DNA of 20,158 nucleotides, from IMG/VR virus record IMGVR_UViG_3300028025_000367, positions 1-20,158 of that record. One strand, given 5' to 3'. Below the pieces are notes generated by a model that was not told the origin of the DNA, did not search any database, and saw nothing but the letters and a program-made list of their open reading frames with translations. This document shows positions 1,697 through 6,430 of the stretch, piece by piece. The stretch is from a virus. Positions within the stretch are counted from its first letter, which is position 1. Every line of letters starts with the position of its first letter. The position numbers were made by a program, and so were the translations under genes.

Positions 1697-1926
1697 CAGA
1701 TACCTTCCCTATTGCGCCAACGGATGACGGCGGTTCTACTTATGTTAATCCCGTTATCGTTCAACACCTGAGCCAACACCGAAGCCGAAATCGTTGGGTT
1801 TTGCAAAGCGCACAAAAGGTCATCTCTGTCCTCCCCTTGCATTGACTGTATCGCCAGATCAACTGATGATTGCTTTCCCCCAGAATTAACTGGCGTTTCC
1901 TCTATCTGCTTTAGTAACTTTCCCAT
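1696..1926 (-). CDS. Small helix-turn-helix-like DNA-binding protein
   Basis: This is a protein of about 76 residues. Its last 40 residues have two helices separated by a short turn and end in RTAVIRWRNREGI, the look of a recognition helix, so DNA binding is inferred. The ATG at 1926 is preferred over an in-frame GTG at 1932, because AGAAGG lies about five bases before the ATG and would overlap the GTG. The gene starts inside the previous gene (about 40 bases of overlap) and its TGA overlaps the phosphoesterase ATG, so the two are translationally coupled. A small-terminase-like or regulatory role are both possible. No other terminase small subunit candidate is visible in the window. Confidence 0.65.
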   Translation of the reverse strand: MGKLLKQIEETPVNSGGKQSSVDLAIQSMQGEDRDDLLCALQNPTISASVLAQVLNDNGINISRTAVIRWRNREGI

Positions 1927-2149
1927 GCTCACCTTCTCTGTGATCCTGAATATGTTTATCTAACTTGTCGTCCACTTTGTTCAAGCCCTTGTAGATCATC
2001 TTGAGTTGCATCTGCACTACGGCATGATCCTCACGGTTCTCCCTCCGTGCCTCTTTCGTCTCCCTCTTAAATGATTGCATGAATCCAGCCACAATGCCAC
2101 CGACTGTTGTGATACAAGCGACAACTACTGCAGCGATCCCCATATCCAT
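1886..2149 (-). CDS. Single-span membrane protein with coiled-coil tail, holin/lysis accessory candidate
   Basis: The 87-residue protein has one N-terminal hydrophobic segment (about residues 4-24, IAAVVVACITTVGGIVAGFM). A strongly charged helical tail follows, with heptad-like leucine/methionine/valine spacing (VVQMQLKMIYKGLNKVDDKL), and the C-terminus is Lys/Asp-rich. This resembles small membrane proteins found beside actinophage endolysins (DUF2746-like). The ATG directly follows the endolysin TAA (TAAATG), so translation is coupled. It probably inserts in the inner membrane and helps time lysis. An alternative is an anchor for another late protein. The family assignment is from memory of architecture, not a search. 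Confidence 0.75.
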   Translation of the reverse strand: MDMGIAAVVVACITTVGGIVAGFMQSFKRETKEARRENREDHAVVQMQLKMIYKGLNKVDDKLDKHIQDHREGEHGKVTKADRGNAS

Positions 2150-2656
2150 TTATGCACCAACGACTACTTGCTCTGGCGGATTCTGTGCGAATACAGCCTT
2201 AATCTGCTCAGATGATTTCTTGCCATCCACTTCAACATGAAACCAATCGCCGTTAGGTGCACCATGTACCGTCTCTTTCGTATATTTTTGCCACGCCATA
2301 TCTCTATCGCACTTAGATGCACGACCGTGTGGCGCAGGGAAATAATCAATGATCATCTCAATGCCTAAAGCGTCAGCGTGTTTGACCAGATAATCCATTG
2401 CCTCCATCGCATACTTGCGACCACCCTTAGCGACACCACGCTTACCATCACCCATGTTGCGAAACGAGATATCGCAGGCTCTGCCAGTTGCATGAACACT
2501 CAGAGATTCTTTGCCACGCATATTGCGAACACCCCACGAACCATTGTTCCACAACGCAGGTGAATACGCCCTAAATAGTTCACGCATCAATGCAGTCAGT
2601 TGAGGATGCTCTCCTGCTGCAGCCCCATCCTTATTGCCAGTGTATGAGCGTTTCAC
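2150..2656 (-). CDS. Endolysin, M15-type peptidase (D-Ala-D-Ala carboxypeptidase-like)
   Basis: The 168-residue protein has the M15/VanY-like zinc peptidase signature: SVHATGRACDISF supplies His55 and Asp62, and DWFHVEV supplies the third ligand His140, with Glu142 next to it. An NNGSWGVRNMRG segment precedes the first motif, as in phage lysins. It should cut peptide cross-links in host peptidoglycan. No signal peptide is present, so release depends on a holin. No cell-wall-binding domain follows the catalytic domain, only a short tail from about residue 145, so it is a compact single-domain lysin. Translation starts at GTG, overlapping the TGA of the preceding membrane protein gene (GTGA). 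Confidence 0.88.
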   Translation of the reverse strand: MKRSYTGNKDGAAAGEHPQLTALMRELFRAYSPALWNNGSWGVRNMRGKESLSVHATGRACDISFRNMGDGKRGVAKGGRKYAMEAMDYLVKHADALGIEMIIDYFPAPHGRASKCDRDMAWQKYTKETVHGAPNGDWFHVEVDGKKSSEQIKAVFAQNPPEQVVVGA

Positions 2657-2913
2657 TTCGCTGCCTTCTTGGCTGCAATCTTTTTCGGAGTAGCACCGAA
2701 CGCTGCATCAATTTCATCGGCGGTTAGTTTCCCATCTACACTTGCACGAGCGAGAGACTCAACTACCTTGAACACGGACACTGCTCCAGCAAGTGCTGCA
2801 GCCTTCCAGAGTTCCAACTCAGGTGCAATAACACTCGCACCTGTAATCACACCTAACGCATTAGTGAGAAACAACGCAACAATTCTGCCTGCAACATCTT
2901 GAGCCTTTTTCAT
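2653..2913 (-). CDS. Two-helix holin candidate with EF-hand-like C-terminus
   Basis: This is an 86-residue protein with two hydrophobic helices, about residues 10-30 (IVALFLTNALGVITGASVIA) and 36-54 (LWKAAALAGAVSVFKVVE). It ends in the EF-hand-like DGKLTADEIDAAFG segment and a Lys/Ala-rich tail. That architecture fits a class II-type holin. The frame is open further upstream to 3159, but ATG 2913 is chosen for three reasons: the upstream part overlaps another good small gene, it would add a charged non-membrane stretch, and the ATG overlaps the preceding TGA (ATGA). A GGAAAGG sequence lies about 11 bases upstream. Immediately followed by the endolysin. Confidence 0.8.
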   Translation of the reverse strand: MKKAQDVAGRIVALFLTNALGVITGASVIAPELELWKAAALAGAVSVFKVVESLARASVDGKLTADEIDAAFGATPKKIAAKKAAK

Positions 2914-3080
2914 TCTGGGTCGCCTTTCCTTAACATTGTTGCCACGAAGTGTACTAGCACCGTTAGACAAGTAATCCAGAGAGCCTGTCGCAAAGTAGTT
3001 CCAGACAAAGTGAGCAACACTAAACCTGTGCCAGCCCACACCCATGCGTTCTCTATTAGGTACTCGTGGATCTTTTTCAT
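2910..3080 (-). CDS. 56-residue membrane protein, holin/antiholin candidate
   Basis: This short gene starts at ATG 3080 and stops at TGA 2910. The product begins MKKIHEYLIENAWVWAG and has two hydrophobic stretches, about residues 13-26 and 33-49 (ALWITCLTVLVHFVATM), with a charged tail ending RKGDPE. It overlaps the preceding gene by ATGA and the next gene by ATGA. GAGG lies about six bases before the start. The exact head-to-tail coupling with both neighbours and the clean membrane profile make it a credible gene despite its length. With the 86-residue neighbour it would form a holin pair, or one member may be an antiholin. Which one is lytic cannot be told from sequence. Confidence 0.72.
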   Translation of the reverse strand: MKKIHEYLIENAWVWAGTGLVLLTLSGTTLRQALWITCLTVLVHFVATMLRKGDPE

Positions 3081-4444
3081 GGTCGCCTCGTGGAAACTGG
3101 GGAAGGTAAAGCCATAAGAATTGTAGTGCCTGCAATAATCGTGCGCCGAACAGCAACATTCACTGCAGATCCAGTAGGCACATATGTAGAGAAACCATCG
3201 TTGTTAAAAATGTTGATTGATTCCTCAAACGCTTCACGAACCTCATCAGGAACTTCAGGATCGTTCAGTGCATCAGCAATAACGGCTGCCATTGACTCTG
3301 ATAGTTGGGTTGGTTCAATCTCATCAAACAACTGTTGAGCCTGTTCACCTGTTATCGCTGTAAGGATTTCTGCTGAGGCGACCAGTTGTTCAGCCTGATC
3401 ACTACTCAAATCGCTAGCGAGAATTGTGGTCACAATTTCAGCGACCTCATCTGCGGTTGATTCAGAGAGAACAGCCAGAACGCTAACGAACTGTTCTGTG
3501 GTCAGAGGCTCATCAGGCGAAAAGAAAGTTGGTGGGGTTACTTCCACACTCGTAGAAGTTTCCGAAGGCTTAGGGAGGCTCGTAGAGGTGTCTAACGGGA
3601 TTATAAGTGCAGTAGTTGCAGGCGACAGAGGCTCGCTAGTCTGAGGGGATGTGGTCAGCATTGTTTCTGGTAGGGGTTCTGGCAGGGTTGTTGTGGACTG
3701 TTCTGTTGTGGCTACCACGACTTCTGGAATGGGTTGAGGAATCGGTAGGGGAGTAACAGATGAGGTTGTTTCTGGGGCTGTTGATGTTATTTGTGGTTCT
3801 GCCGTTGTACTTGGCTGGTAAATAGATGCTGCTGTGGTGCTTACTGGCATCTCCGTTATCGTGGTACTTGGCTCTGTGGTTGTCGTTTCAAGCGTGGAAG
3901 TCGTTGAAGGCGTTAAAGGCTCATTTGTAAAAAACTCAGGCTGGACTATTTCCCAACCACGCCCGTCAATGTTCCACGCAAACATAAAACAGGTACCACC
4001 ACTATTTTCATACATCCACGCATCAACGGCCTGAGTTCCCGCAGCCATTTCGATCAGCCCTGTTTCGGTAGCCGAACATCCCTGATCCTGCCAGACCCCG
4101 AACTCCTCTGTGCCAATCTTGATTGTGCCGCCATCGTCTGACGCAATCCAAAACTCGATCGTGTCATGTACCGGAACTTGAAGGAAGCCCGTGTAGTGAA
4201 GCATGAAGGAATCCCAACCGCAATCACCAAACAAGTTCTGTTCATAATCCCATGTGGCATTAATAAACGGTTCAACACTGCTACCGCACAAAGGGTAAGC
4301 AATATCAGATTTAATTGGTGGTATTTCCGTGACTGAATAGCCACGAACTAGCAGCCCTGTTTGTGATGCCTGTGCAGGCTGTGGTGCAAATAAAGCAAAC
4401 AGCGCTACAGGGAGAAAGATCAGCCAACGGGAACTTCTACCCAT
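3077..4444 (-). CDS. Secreted PA14-like domain protein with Ser/Thr/Pro-rich linker
   Basis: The 455-residue protein starts with a classic Sec signal peptide (residues 1-26: SSRW, a hydrophobic LIFLPVALFALFA core, then AQA). Residues about 27-180 look like a PA14 domain, with the segments DSFMLHYTGFLQVP, FWIASDDGGTIKIG and MYENSGGTCFMFAW, plus several cysteines that could form disulphides. Residues about 180-310 are a Thr/Ser/Pro-rich linker. Residues about 315-415 are an acidic helical region (STADEVAEIVTTILASDL). A short hydrophobic segment near the C-terminus (TIIAGTTILMALP) is followed by Arg. PA14 domains bind carbohydrates. It sits between tail-fibre-like genes and the lysis genes, overlapping both neighbours. 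It could be a host-surface modifier, an exclusion factor, a lysis accessory or a virion adhesin. The function is not known. Confidence 0.85.
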   Translation of the reverse strand: MGRSSRWLIFLPVALFALFAPQPAQASQTGLLVRGYSVTEIPPIKSDIAYPLCGSSVEPFINATWDYEQNLFGDCGWDSFMLHYTGFLQVPVHDTIEFWIASDDGGTIKIGTEEFGVWQDQGCSATETGLIEMAAGTQAVDAWMYENSGGTCFMFAWNIDGRGWEIVQPEFFTNEPLTPSTTSTLETTTTEPSTTITEMPVSTTAASIYQPSTTAEPQITSTAPETTSSVTPLPIPQPIPEVVVATTEQSTTTLPEPLPETMLTTSPQTSEPLSPATTALIIPLDTSTSLPKPSETSTSVEVTPPTFFSPDEPLTTEQFVSVLAVLSESTADEVAEIVTTILASDLSSDQAEQLVASAEILTAITGEQAQQLFDEIEPTQLSESMAAVIADALNDPEVPDEVREAFEESINIFNNDGFSTYVPTGSAVNVAVRRTIIAGTTILMALPSPVSTRRP

Positions 4445-4776
4445 GACAGTTCGCTTTCATCCCACATCCAGTTGCCTTCAGGCTTAGGAGTAGGTGGCTG
4501 CCAGTCATGGTTGCTATCTAAAGTCCAAGAAGGAAATGGTTGTGGAGAAAAAAACACATCTGCCTCAGCATCATATGCGTACCCAATTCCTGCATATGTC
4601 TTACGAAAGTTTGAGTGATACGAAGTCTGCAACCATTCACCGCCTAAACCAATAGAAGCAATAAACGCTTGACCTATTGGTTCTGATTCAGGGAACTCAC
4701 CACCACCGCAATCTGCGTTATTAACCACGATTACTTGTGTAACGATTCCGTTTGATATTTCTGCAAAGTGTGCCAT
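4420..4776 (-). CDS. Small protein associated with tail-fibre genes
   Basis: This is a 118-residue soluble protein. The N-terminal half has the pattern MAHFAEISNGIVTQVIVVNN, then GEWLQTSYHSNFRKTYAGIG. The C-terminal half is rich in Pro and Trp (PQPFPSWTLDSNHDWQPPTP) and ends with NWMWDESELSW. I recognise this as a type of protein recurrent beside tail-fibre genes in aquatic phages, without an assigned function. The ATG overlaps the upstream stop by one base (TAATG), and its end overlaps the start of the secreted PA14-like gene by 25 bases. It may be a fibre chaperone or a tip component; neither is shown. Confidence 0.75.
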   Translation of the reverse strand: MAHFAEISNGIVTQVIVVNNADCGGGEFPESEPIGQAFIASIGLGGEWLQTSYHSNFRKTYAGIGYAYDAEADVFFSPQPFPSWTLDSNHDWQPPTPKPEGNWMWDESELSWVEVPVG

Positions 4777-5525
4777 TAGAAAGTAATGCTCCCTGAACCT
4801 GTAAATGTATATACATGATAACCAGCACGAGATACCGCACTGTAAGTTGGCGAACCAGTAGTTGCTGTTGCCTGTTTGTAACTCTGTGAATATGCAACAA
4901 CGACAAGACCAGAACCACCTGCACCTGCTGTGGCGTTTGATACTGCCTGTGTTCCACCACCACCGCCACCCGTATTCACTGTTCCTGATGTTGCCAATGT
5001 TCCTGCTGTACCAGCACCGCCACCACCTGCGCCTCCAGCGCCTGGAACTGCACCACCACCGCCACCGCCACCACCACGCTGAACAGATGAACCTGTAATG
5101 CTGTCAAAGAAACCTGCACCACCACCAGCGTTCTGACCACCACCAGCACCACCTGTATAAGTTGCGCCAGTTCCACCAGAAACTCCAGAAGTTTGTGTGC
5201 CACCTGAAGCGCCAGTAACGCTCACACCAAATGTTGAAGTATTGCCAGTTCCTCCACCGAGTGGACCAATGTAGTTGTTGCCTGCTGTTCCACCACCACC
5301 AACAGTGACAGTGATTGCAGAGCCAGCCGTTACAGCATACGAAGTGCTTTTTGAACCACCCGAACCTGCACCGCCACCACCGTTCGTGATTCCAGTGTTT
5401 CCTGCTGCACCACCACCACCGCCAGCGATAACAAGATATTCAACAGTTGGTGGTGCTAAATAAACCAATCCATTACCAACCCAAGTACCGACAACTGTTG
5501 ACGGTCTAGTGCGTGAACCTCTCAT
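4776..5525 (-). CDS. Glycine-rich adhesin-like tail protein (second copy)
   Basis: The 249-residue protein is dominated by glycine runs. After about 28 residues it has the EYLVIAGGGGGAAG motif. A long Gly/Ala/Ser/Thr region with several GGGGG blocks follows, then SITGSSVQRGGGGGGGG, a VVVAY strand, and a C-terminal segment (YHVYTFTGSGSITF) that looks like a beta-strand end. Phage tail-tip adhesins with polyglycine-II helices have this composition, so a host-receptor-binding role is inferred. It is clearly related to the neighbouring 302-residue protein, with the same EYLVIAGG start and SITGSSV block. It starts by an ATGA overlap with that gene. The GC-rich antisense ORF in this stretch is a by-product of Gly codons. 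Confidence 0.82.
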   Translation of the reverse strand: MRGSRTRPSTVVGTWVGNGLVYLAPPTVEYLVIAGGGGGAAGNTGITNGGGGAGSGGSKSTSYAVTAGSAITVTVGGGGTAGNNYIGPLGGGTGNTSTFGVSVTGASGGTQTSGVSGGTGATYTGGAGGGQNAGGGAGFFDSITGSSVQRGGGGGGGGAVPGAGGAGGGGAGTAGTLATSGTVNTGGGGGGTQAVSNATAGAGGSGLVVVAYSQSYKQATATTGSPTYSAVSRAGYHVYTFTGSGSITF

Positions 5526-6430
5526 TTGATTACGCTCACAGTAGTTGCACCTGTAGAAGTAAATGAATGAATTGTGTACACACCAGAAGTAGTTATTGTT
5601 CCACCGCCAACAGAAATACCTGCAGCCGTTGCATCTGCTGTGAGATAACGAAAGATCACAACACCTGAACCACCTACACCACCAGCCTGATTGCTTTGGC
5701 TTGCACCTCCACCTCCACCACCGCCAGTATTCACTGTGCCTGCAACACCTGTTTGGTTTGCTGGCGCACCAGCACCACCACCACCAGCACCGCCTGCACC
5801 ACCACCGTTGTCTCCTGCACCACCACCACCGCCACCACGAGTGACAGATGAACCTGTAATAGACGAGGAAACACCTGCACCACCAGCACCGCCAATGATT
5901 CCTGCTGAACCATTAGAACCAACAGCACTAGCACCGCCACCGCCACCAGAAGCATAAGTGCCTGGATTATTTCCACCTGCACGACCTTGATCAGTTGTTC
6001 CTGCTGCACCCGAGGAAGCACCAAGAGTTCCTATTGCACCACCACCAGAACCACCTGTACTTACTGCAGCGAATAAACCACCACCACGACCACCGCCAGT
6101 TGATGTGATTGTTGAAAGACCAGAACCAGCAATAGAACTATCTGAACCGATTGCGTTAGTCGCACCACCAGCACCAACAGTCACCGTATATGTGATACCT
6201 GCGGTAAGCGTTATCGGTGCTTCTGCACTTGCACCACCACCTGAACTTTCAGCGAGTGCTGAACTGCGATAACCGCCAGCACCACCACCGCCACCATTTG
6301 ATGTTGCGTTACTTCCAACACCGCCACCACCGCCACCTGCGATAACTAAATACTCAGCAAGTAGAACAGGGTTTAGCCAATTCTTTGTGTACTGATTAAC
6401 CCTGTTACGAGTATCCCAACGAAGCGTCAC
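5522..6430 (-). CDS. Glycine-rich adhesin-like tail protein (first copy)
   Basis: The 302-residue protein opens with a Trp/Asn-rich segment (MTLRWDTRNRVNQYTKNW) and then LLAEYLVIAGGGGGG. A long series of Gly/Ala-rich blocks follows, including SITGSSVTRGGGGGGAG and VNTGGGGGGG, then a GSGVVIFRY strand and a C-terminal beta-like module (GVYTIHSFTSTGATTVSVIK). The start is GTG at 6430, supported by AGGCGG seven bases upstream. A role at the tail tip in receptor binding is inferred from composition and position downstream of minor tail genes. The N-terminal segment may attach it to the tail, as it differs from the otherwise similar neighbour. Confidence 0.82.
   Translation of the reverse strand: MTLRWDTRNRVNQYTKNWLNPVLLAEYLVIAGGGGGGVGSNATSNGGGGGAGGYRSSALAESSGGGASAEAPITLTAGITYTVTVGAGGATNAIGSDSSIAGSGLSTITSTGGGRGGGLFAAVSTGGSGGGAIGTLGASSGAAGTTDQGRAGGNNPGTYASGGGGGASAVGSNGSAGIIGGAGGAGVSSSITGSSVTRGGGGGGAGDNGGGAGGAGGGGAGAPANQTGVAGTVNTGGGGGGGASQSNQAGGVGGSGVVIFRYLTADATAAGISVGGGTITTSGVYTIHSFTSTGATTVSVIK

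Follow-up and report, generated by a model that had tools for sequence, protein, structure and literature searches.

Most of the proteins that phages are known to place on the surface of their host are encoded by prophages and are either lipoproteins of small size or membrane proteins. Ltp of phage TP-J34, a superinfection-exclusion lipoprotein exposed at the outside of its Gram-positive host (PMC3952083), resembles the protein described here in being phage-encoded and directed, as we propose for ours, to the host surface, and possibly in its purpose; unlike Ltp, our protein lacks a lipobox cysteine, relies on a two-gene anchor, carries a lectin head and is linked to lysis genes, and no sequence relation was noted. 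CwpV of Clostridioides difficile, a surface protein with a variable part hindering phage infection (PMC4737114), offers a functional likeness only, as it is host-encoded and has a different anchor and a different fold. In structure, the nearest described proteins are cellular adhesins: MpPA14 (PDB 6x7z), a domain of bacterial RTX adhesins, and yeast Epa1/Flo5 share with our protein the same beta-sandwich, consecutive invariant aspartates and a display on a long stalk which is predicted here, whereas the present protein is phage-borne and has a Thr/Ser/Pro stalk, an undescribed helical C-terminal module (hereafter C-module) and a partner protein with two transmembrane (TM) segments. By sequence, the closest PA14 domains are those of RsgI-type anti-sigma factors (PDB 6qe7 and 6qdi, 2e-23 in a profile comparison), which are likewise membrane proteins with a PA14 domain outside; our protein differs from them in having no sigma-factor-binding part and in its anchor and partner.

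The window, that is, the whole stretch of DNA analyzed, is the 20,158-bp virus record of a tailed phage (IMGVR_UViG_3300028025_000367). Its terminase has its nearest relative in Pontimonas phage phiPsal1 (38.6%) and its capsid protein matches mycobacteriophages only (36%), so that an actinobacterial host is likely on the grounds of sequence relatedness. The surface gene (3077..4444, minus strand) encodes 455 amino acids, which the earlier note had divided into a Sec signal peptide, a PA14-like module with cysteines, a Thr/Ser/Pro linker, an acidic helical domain and a short hydrophobic tail, a division that our analysis bears out for the most part. The signal peptide (residues 1-26, MGRSSRWLIFLPVALFALFAPQPAQA, with AQA before SQ; 4367..4444) obeys a pattern that is general in the family: a crude rule of our own for Sec-type signals was passed by 39 of 40 non-redundant members, whereas of 197 control ORFs taken from these loci only 24 passed it. 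The PA14 lectin-type head (residues 27-178; 3911..4366) holds all four cysteines of the protein (53, 75, 123 and 152). The stalk (residues 179 to 305 approximately; 3530..3910) consists of Thr, Ser and Pro to 59% (residues 176-305) and is predicted by AlphaFold2 (AF2) to be disordered over residues 180-303; its length and sequence vary among relatives, while both ends of the protein are kept. The acidic C-module (residues 306-430, with 25 D/E versus 1 K/R), encoded together with the tail (residues 433-455) at 3080..3529, is modeled as all-helical with a pLDDT of about 90 (AF2) and carries the motif YVPxGSxVxVxxRR (family form Y[VI]Pxx S xVxVxxRR). It is followed by RR, a short hydrophobic stretch of about 13-17 residues and RRP. 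Among unfused family members, RR plus a hydrophobic stretch is found in 43/43 tails and a net basic end in 42/43.

Relatives of the surface protein are encoded at 29 viral loci. In five comparisons the dN of the head was 0.08-0.21 versus a dS of 0.66-1.5; since dN lies well under dS, ORF 3077-4444 is a gene under purifying selection, and the ORF described in the earlier note is real. Selection is clear in the head and the C-module and weaker in the stalk. Conservation and dN/dS rule out a chance ORF, and contamination of the contig by host DNA was rejected as well because relatives flanked by phage genes occur in many viral contigs.

The assignment of the head rests on several lines of comparison. 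Pfam PF07691 matches the surface protein with 22.1 bits (E 1.5e-4); the curated cut-off is 24, narrowly missed here but passed by two relatives (L079, 29.6; L208, 27.5), and a profile built from the family heads matches solved RsgI PA14 domains with E values of 1e-21 to 2e-23. Where the earlier note had allowed for a protein without a PA14 fold, structure prediction gave that very fold: AF2 models the head as a confident beta-sandwich (pLDDT about 90 over residues 30-170), for which Foldseek returns solved PA14 domains. The best PDB matches are the PA14 domain of a Marinomonas adhesin in sugar-bound form, then RsgI, yeast Epa1 and Flo1/Flo5; MpPA14 aligns with an E value of 7.8e-9 and a TM-score of 0.66 by target. 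Protective antigen, the namesake of the PA14 domain, also appears lower in the Foldseek list, only because the domain is named after it; no other toxin-like feature was noticed in the surface protein. Residues Asp103-Asp104 are invariant among relatives and fall, in a sequence alignment, on the DDG of MpPA14. In PA14 lectins a cis Asp-Asp site serves calcium and sugar binding (PMC8092209), and the alignment suggests that the head may bind glycans in the same way.

Directly after the surface gene, and overlapping it by 4 bp (ATGA), lies a gene for a protein of 56 amino acids (2910..3080, minus strand) with two hydrophobic segments flanking a TLSG turn. This ORF, which is under the usual length limits, is absent from the earlier note's account, which had the surface gene overlap its neighbors on both sides: the upstream overlap stands (25 bp, with 4420-4776), while the downstream one is not as listed, the actual overlap being the 4 bp shared with the 56-aa ORF. 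The partner matches phrog_29041 (7.5e-22), a family of unknown function which also matches the C-terminus of a 944-aa protein of DSL-LC01 that contains the C-module too. Wherever the viral sequence is long enough, the partner is next to the C-module gene or fused to it. In a first viral set of C-module proteins the partner was encoded next to the gene in 62 cases, fused in 5 and hidden by a contig edge in 1; in a larger, stricter set of 53 non-redundant viral proteins it was next in 43, C-terminally fused in 10 and absent in 0, with a 4-bp overlap in 20 of the 43 unfused pairs. The reverse search of viral sequences, with a single partner sequence as query, found the C-module upstream in 79 of 80 loci, the remaining locus being cut by the contig end. 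Because the pair is so constant and is fused in other genomes, surface protein and partner probably work together.

The C-terminal end of the surface protein could also be read differently. Its motif, hydrophobic stretch and basic end are arranged like a tripartite sorting signal, so that the YVPxGS...RR + hydrophobic + RR tail might be cleaved and the protein attached to the wall, not the membrane; a host PA14 protein from a Rhodoluna genome, with LADTG beside a sortase-like gene, lends this idea some support. However, the motif differs from LPxTG, no known sortase is as small as the 56-aa partner, and fused forms carry the TM hairpin in the same chain, which together make a cut sorting signal most improbable. 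Anchoring through LPxTG itself is ruled out, as the motif is absent, and membership in the Ltp family was rejected for want of a lipobox: the only cysteines are at positions 53, 75, 123 and 152, with cleavage expected near residue 26. The Rhodoluna protein (L032:7998-9626) has a signal peptide and a PA14 domain and ends in LADTG and a TM segment, with the sortase-like gene directly 3'; in this host surface protein a head of the same kind is mounted on a different anchor.

While C-module and partner stay constant, the heads are exchanged. The heads of non-redundant C-module proteins fall into at least eight groups unrelated by BLAST: the PA14 type accounts for 25 heads and a type with a CCGNP motif for 12, two further kinds have 5 and 3 members, and 4 heads are singletons, one of which is a SUEL galactose/rhamnose lectin scoring above its cut-off. 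The L208 head combines PA14 with fn3. At L073 the tail-gene neighbors are the same and the partner is 82% identical, yet the head is unrelated. A head with an LWLY...CCGNP motif recurs on the same C-module (L062, L063, L068, L072, L087, L088 and L103), and the members scanned gave no Pfam or PHROGs match. Variable heads are also what one sees in adhesins, and the nearest folds are those of adhesin and flocculin lectins; the protein might then make infected cells stick to other cells or to particles, bringing progeny out in the midst of new hosts, or might shield cells from grazers. Synthesis late and together with lysis genes would leave little time for such a role, which we regard as quite unlikely.

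More than 500 viral sequence stretches contain the C-module, and the two-gene set occurs with many different heads in hundreds of environmental phage sequences. A tblastn search for isolates among 50,697 phage records, with the surface protein and two further C-modules as queries, returned DSL-LC01 only, a metagenome-assembled phage (PMC10611076); the 56-aa partner had no match among the phage records, and neither did the module among the plasmids searched. The homologue search that the earlier note had proposed for phages and host genomes yielded, besides these viral relatives, the C-module and two-TM part in four actinobacterial genomes: among 396 genomes sampled from the phylum to which the Rhodoluna genome belongs, one contained the C-module, and among 296 sampled from the class of this first positive genome, four did. 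In three of the four chromosomal genes the two-TM part is fused on, and the fourth is followed by it. In G634 and G640 the copies sit between the same two genes, by our reading oxidoreductase-like and DedA-like, and therefore look like resident genes, not prophage. Where the genes are complete enough, the chromosomal heads consist of RCC1 repeats and/or DUF4082 (L186:6357-8243, L187:5825-8845 and L105:7515-10313, two of which occupy one locus in different genomes). An unrooted tree of the C-module places the four chromosomal sequences, with moderate support, in one group whose neighbors are phage proteins mostly of the fused type. For one of the fused chromosomal proteins, AF2 models a helix behind the RR motif and a hairpin of helices at the end of the chain, this part with low confidence. 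A scan of genome contigs with PA14-head patterns found two cellular PA14 proteins, neither with the C-module.

In the phage, the pair is embedded in a run of overlapping minus-strand genes. Upstream lies a gene for a 118-aa protein (4420..4776; phrog_7759, function unknown). Downstream, the partner gene overlaps (ATGA) a gene for a protein of about 86 residues (2653..2913) that appears to be holin-like from its sequence and is common to relatives. It was listed as a 168-aa ORF at 2653-3159, whose true start is probably 2913 because relatives share the last ~86 residues. Its family, phrog_26427, is labeled "nuclease" in PHROGs; this label may be wrong, since a product of ~86 residues with two hydrophobic segments looks holin-like. 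The gene in turn overlaps (GTGA) that of an M15-type/extensin-like peptidase (2150..2656), a putative endolysin judging from weak Pfam and PHROG matches and its sequence, and immediately 3' of the latter is a gene for an 87-aa protein with an N-terminal hydrophobic segment (1886..2149; phrog_32850, function unknown), holin-like by synteny. After the lysis genes comes a phosphoesterase/exonuclease-like gene (635-1696; phrog_284), syntenic in many relatives, which is an unusual place for a DNA-metabolism gene. The order of surface, partner, holin-like and endolysin genes is kept in relatives such as L015, L048 and L067, and by our reading of synteny holin-like or endolysin homologues lie near the module in about 19 of 24 representative loci.

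Given this position, together with start and stop codons that overlap those of the holin-like and endolysin genes and a partner that is holin-like in size, the anchored lectin and its partner could assist holin and endolysin in breaching the envelope or clearing it away, for instance by gripping wall sugars. We consider this unlikely: resident chromosomal copies sit beside metabolic genes, where a lysis role would make no sense, the module is away from lysis genes in some phages (L061, L062 and L063), and among the holin families of Pfam and PHROGs the partner has no match, phrog_29041 being the only family found.

Just upstream of the surface gene region, 4776-6430 encodes two adjoining glycine-rich proteins (Pfam Gly_rich_2), which are tail-fibre-like by position and possibly adhesins. 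That the surface gene directly follows these genes, and that its head is of the lectin type found in adhesion proteins, would suit a virion component, either a decoration or a lectin associated with the tail, which would retain its N-terminus or arrive at the particle by way of the membrane. Against it stand the signal peptide, the membrane partner and the chromosomal counterparts, and ORF 3077-4444 matches no tail family; a place in the virion is decidedly unlikely. An ordinary tail fibre was rejected on the lack of a tail PHROG match and on the constant membrane partner. In view of this partner and of the fusions found in chromosomes, display in the envelope is likelier than incorporation into the virion.

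Phage-encoded host-surface proteins are a known kind, and the anchor made of C-module and partner is undescribed. Neither Pfam nor PHROG has a family that the C-module matches above threshold, and its fold has no PDB match at E < 0.001 in a search whose model also held low-confidence TM parts. In the PHROG library, phrog_29041 includes the two-TM partner with no record of its link to a surface protein. The structural database BFVD contains a "PA14 domain containing protein" of an uncultured Caudovirales phage (A0A6J5SZ50) that matches over the whole length (E 1.4e-23) and is a deposited sequence only, with no described function, and in open-licence papers we found no earlier description of the surface-display family. 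The interpretation of the earlier note is partly supported: a secreted protein in the style of bacterial surface proteins, with a PA14 head, does lie inside a phage late operon, and to this we add an obligatory partner, exchangeable heads, counterparts on actinobacterial chromosomes and a tight coupling to lysis genes.

We propose that the two genes probably form a module that displays a glycan-binding head on the exterior of infected cells; surface display by itself is likely, as the Sec signal, the hydrophobic and basic C-terminus and the membrane partner fit membrane display with a stalk through the wall. The position of the gene points to production alongside the lysis proteins, when virions are released or shortly before. 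Translated late and coupled to the lysis genes, the protein would be exported by the host Sec system; its hydrophobic tail and the two-TM partner would hold the helical C-module at the cytoplasmic membrane, the Thr/Ser/Pro stalk of ~130 residues would span the wall, and the PA14 head would bind glycans on the host surface or close to it, probably via a calcium site. Such a late coat might occupy or hide receptor glycans, keeping rival phages and newly released virions from adsorbing there. Among the roles considered we favor this masking of receptors, on infected cells or on debris, but only tentatively, having chosen it from gene position and by analogy.

What sets the system apart is a lectin on a stalk that has a partner gene of its own, is joined to lysis genes by start and stop overlaps and has its heads swapped while the anchor stays constant. 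As a mask for receptors it would amount to a coat made by the phage, and as an aid to lysis to a new lysis part; each of these roles would give a function to phrog_29041 and to the C-module. More speculatively, actinobacterial phages may share a chassis with exchangeable glycan-binding heads that recoats the cell at lysis and so decides which phages adsorb and where the progeny go.
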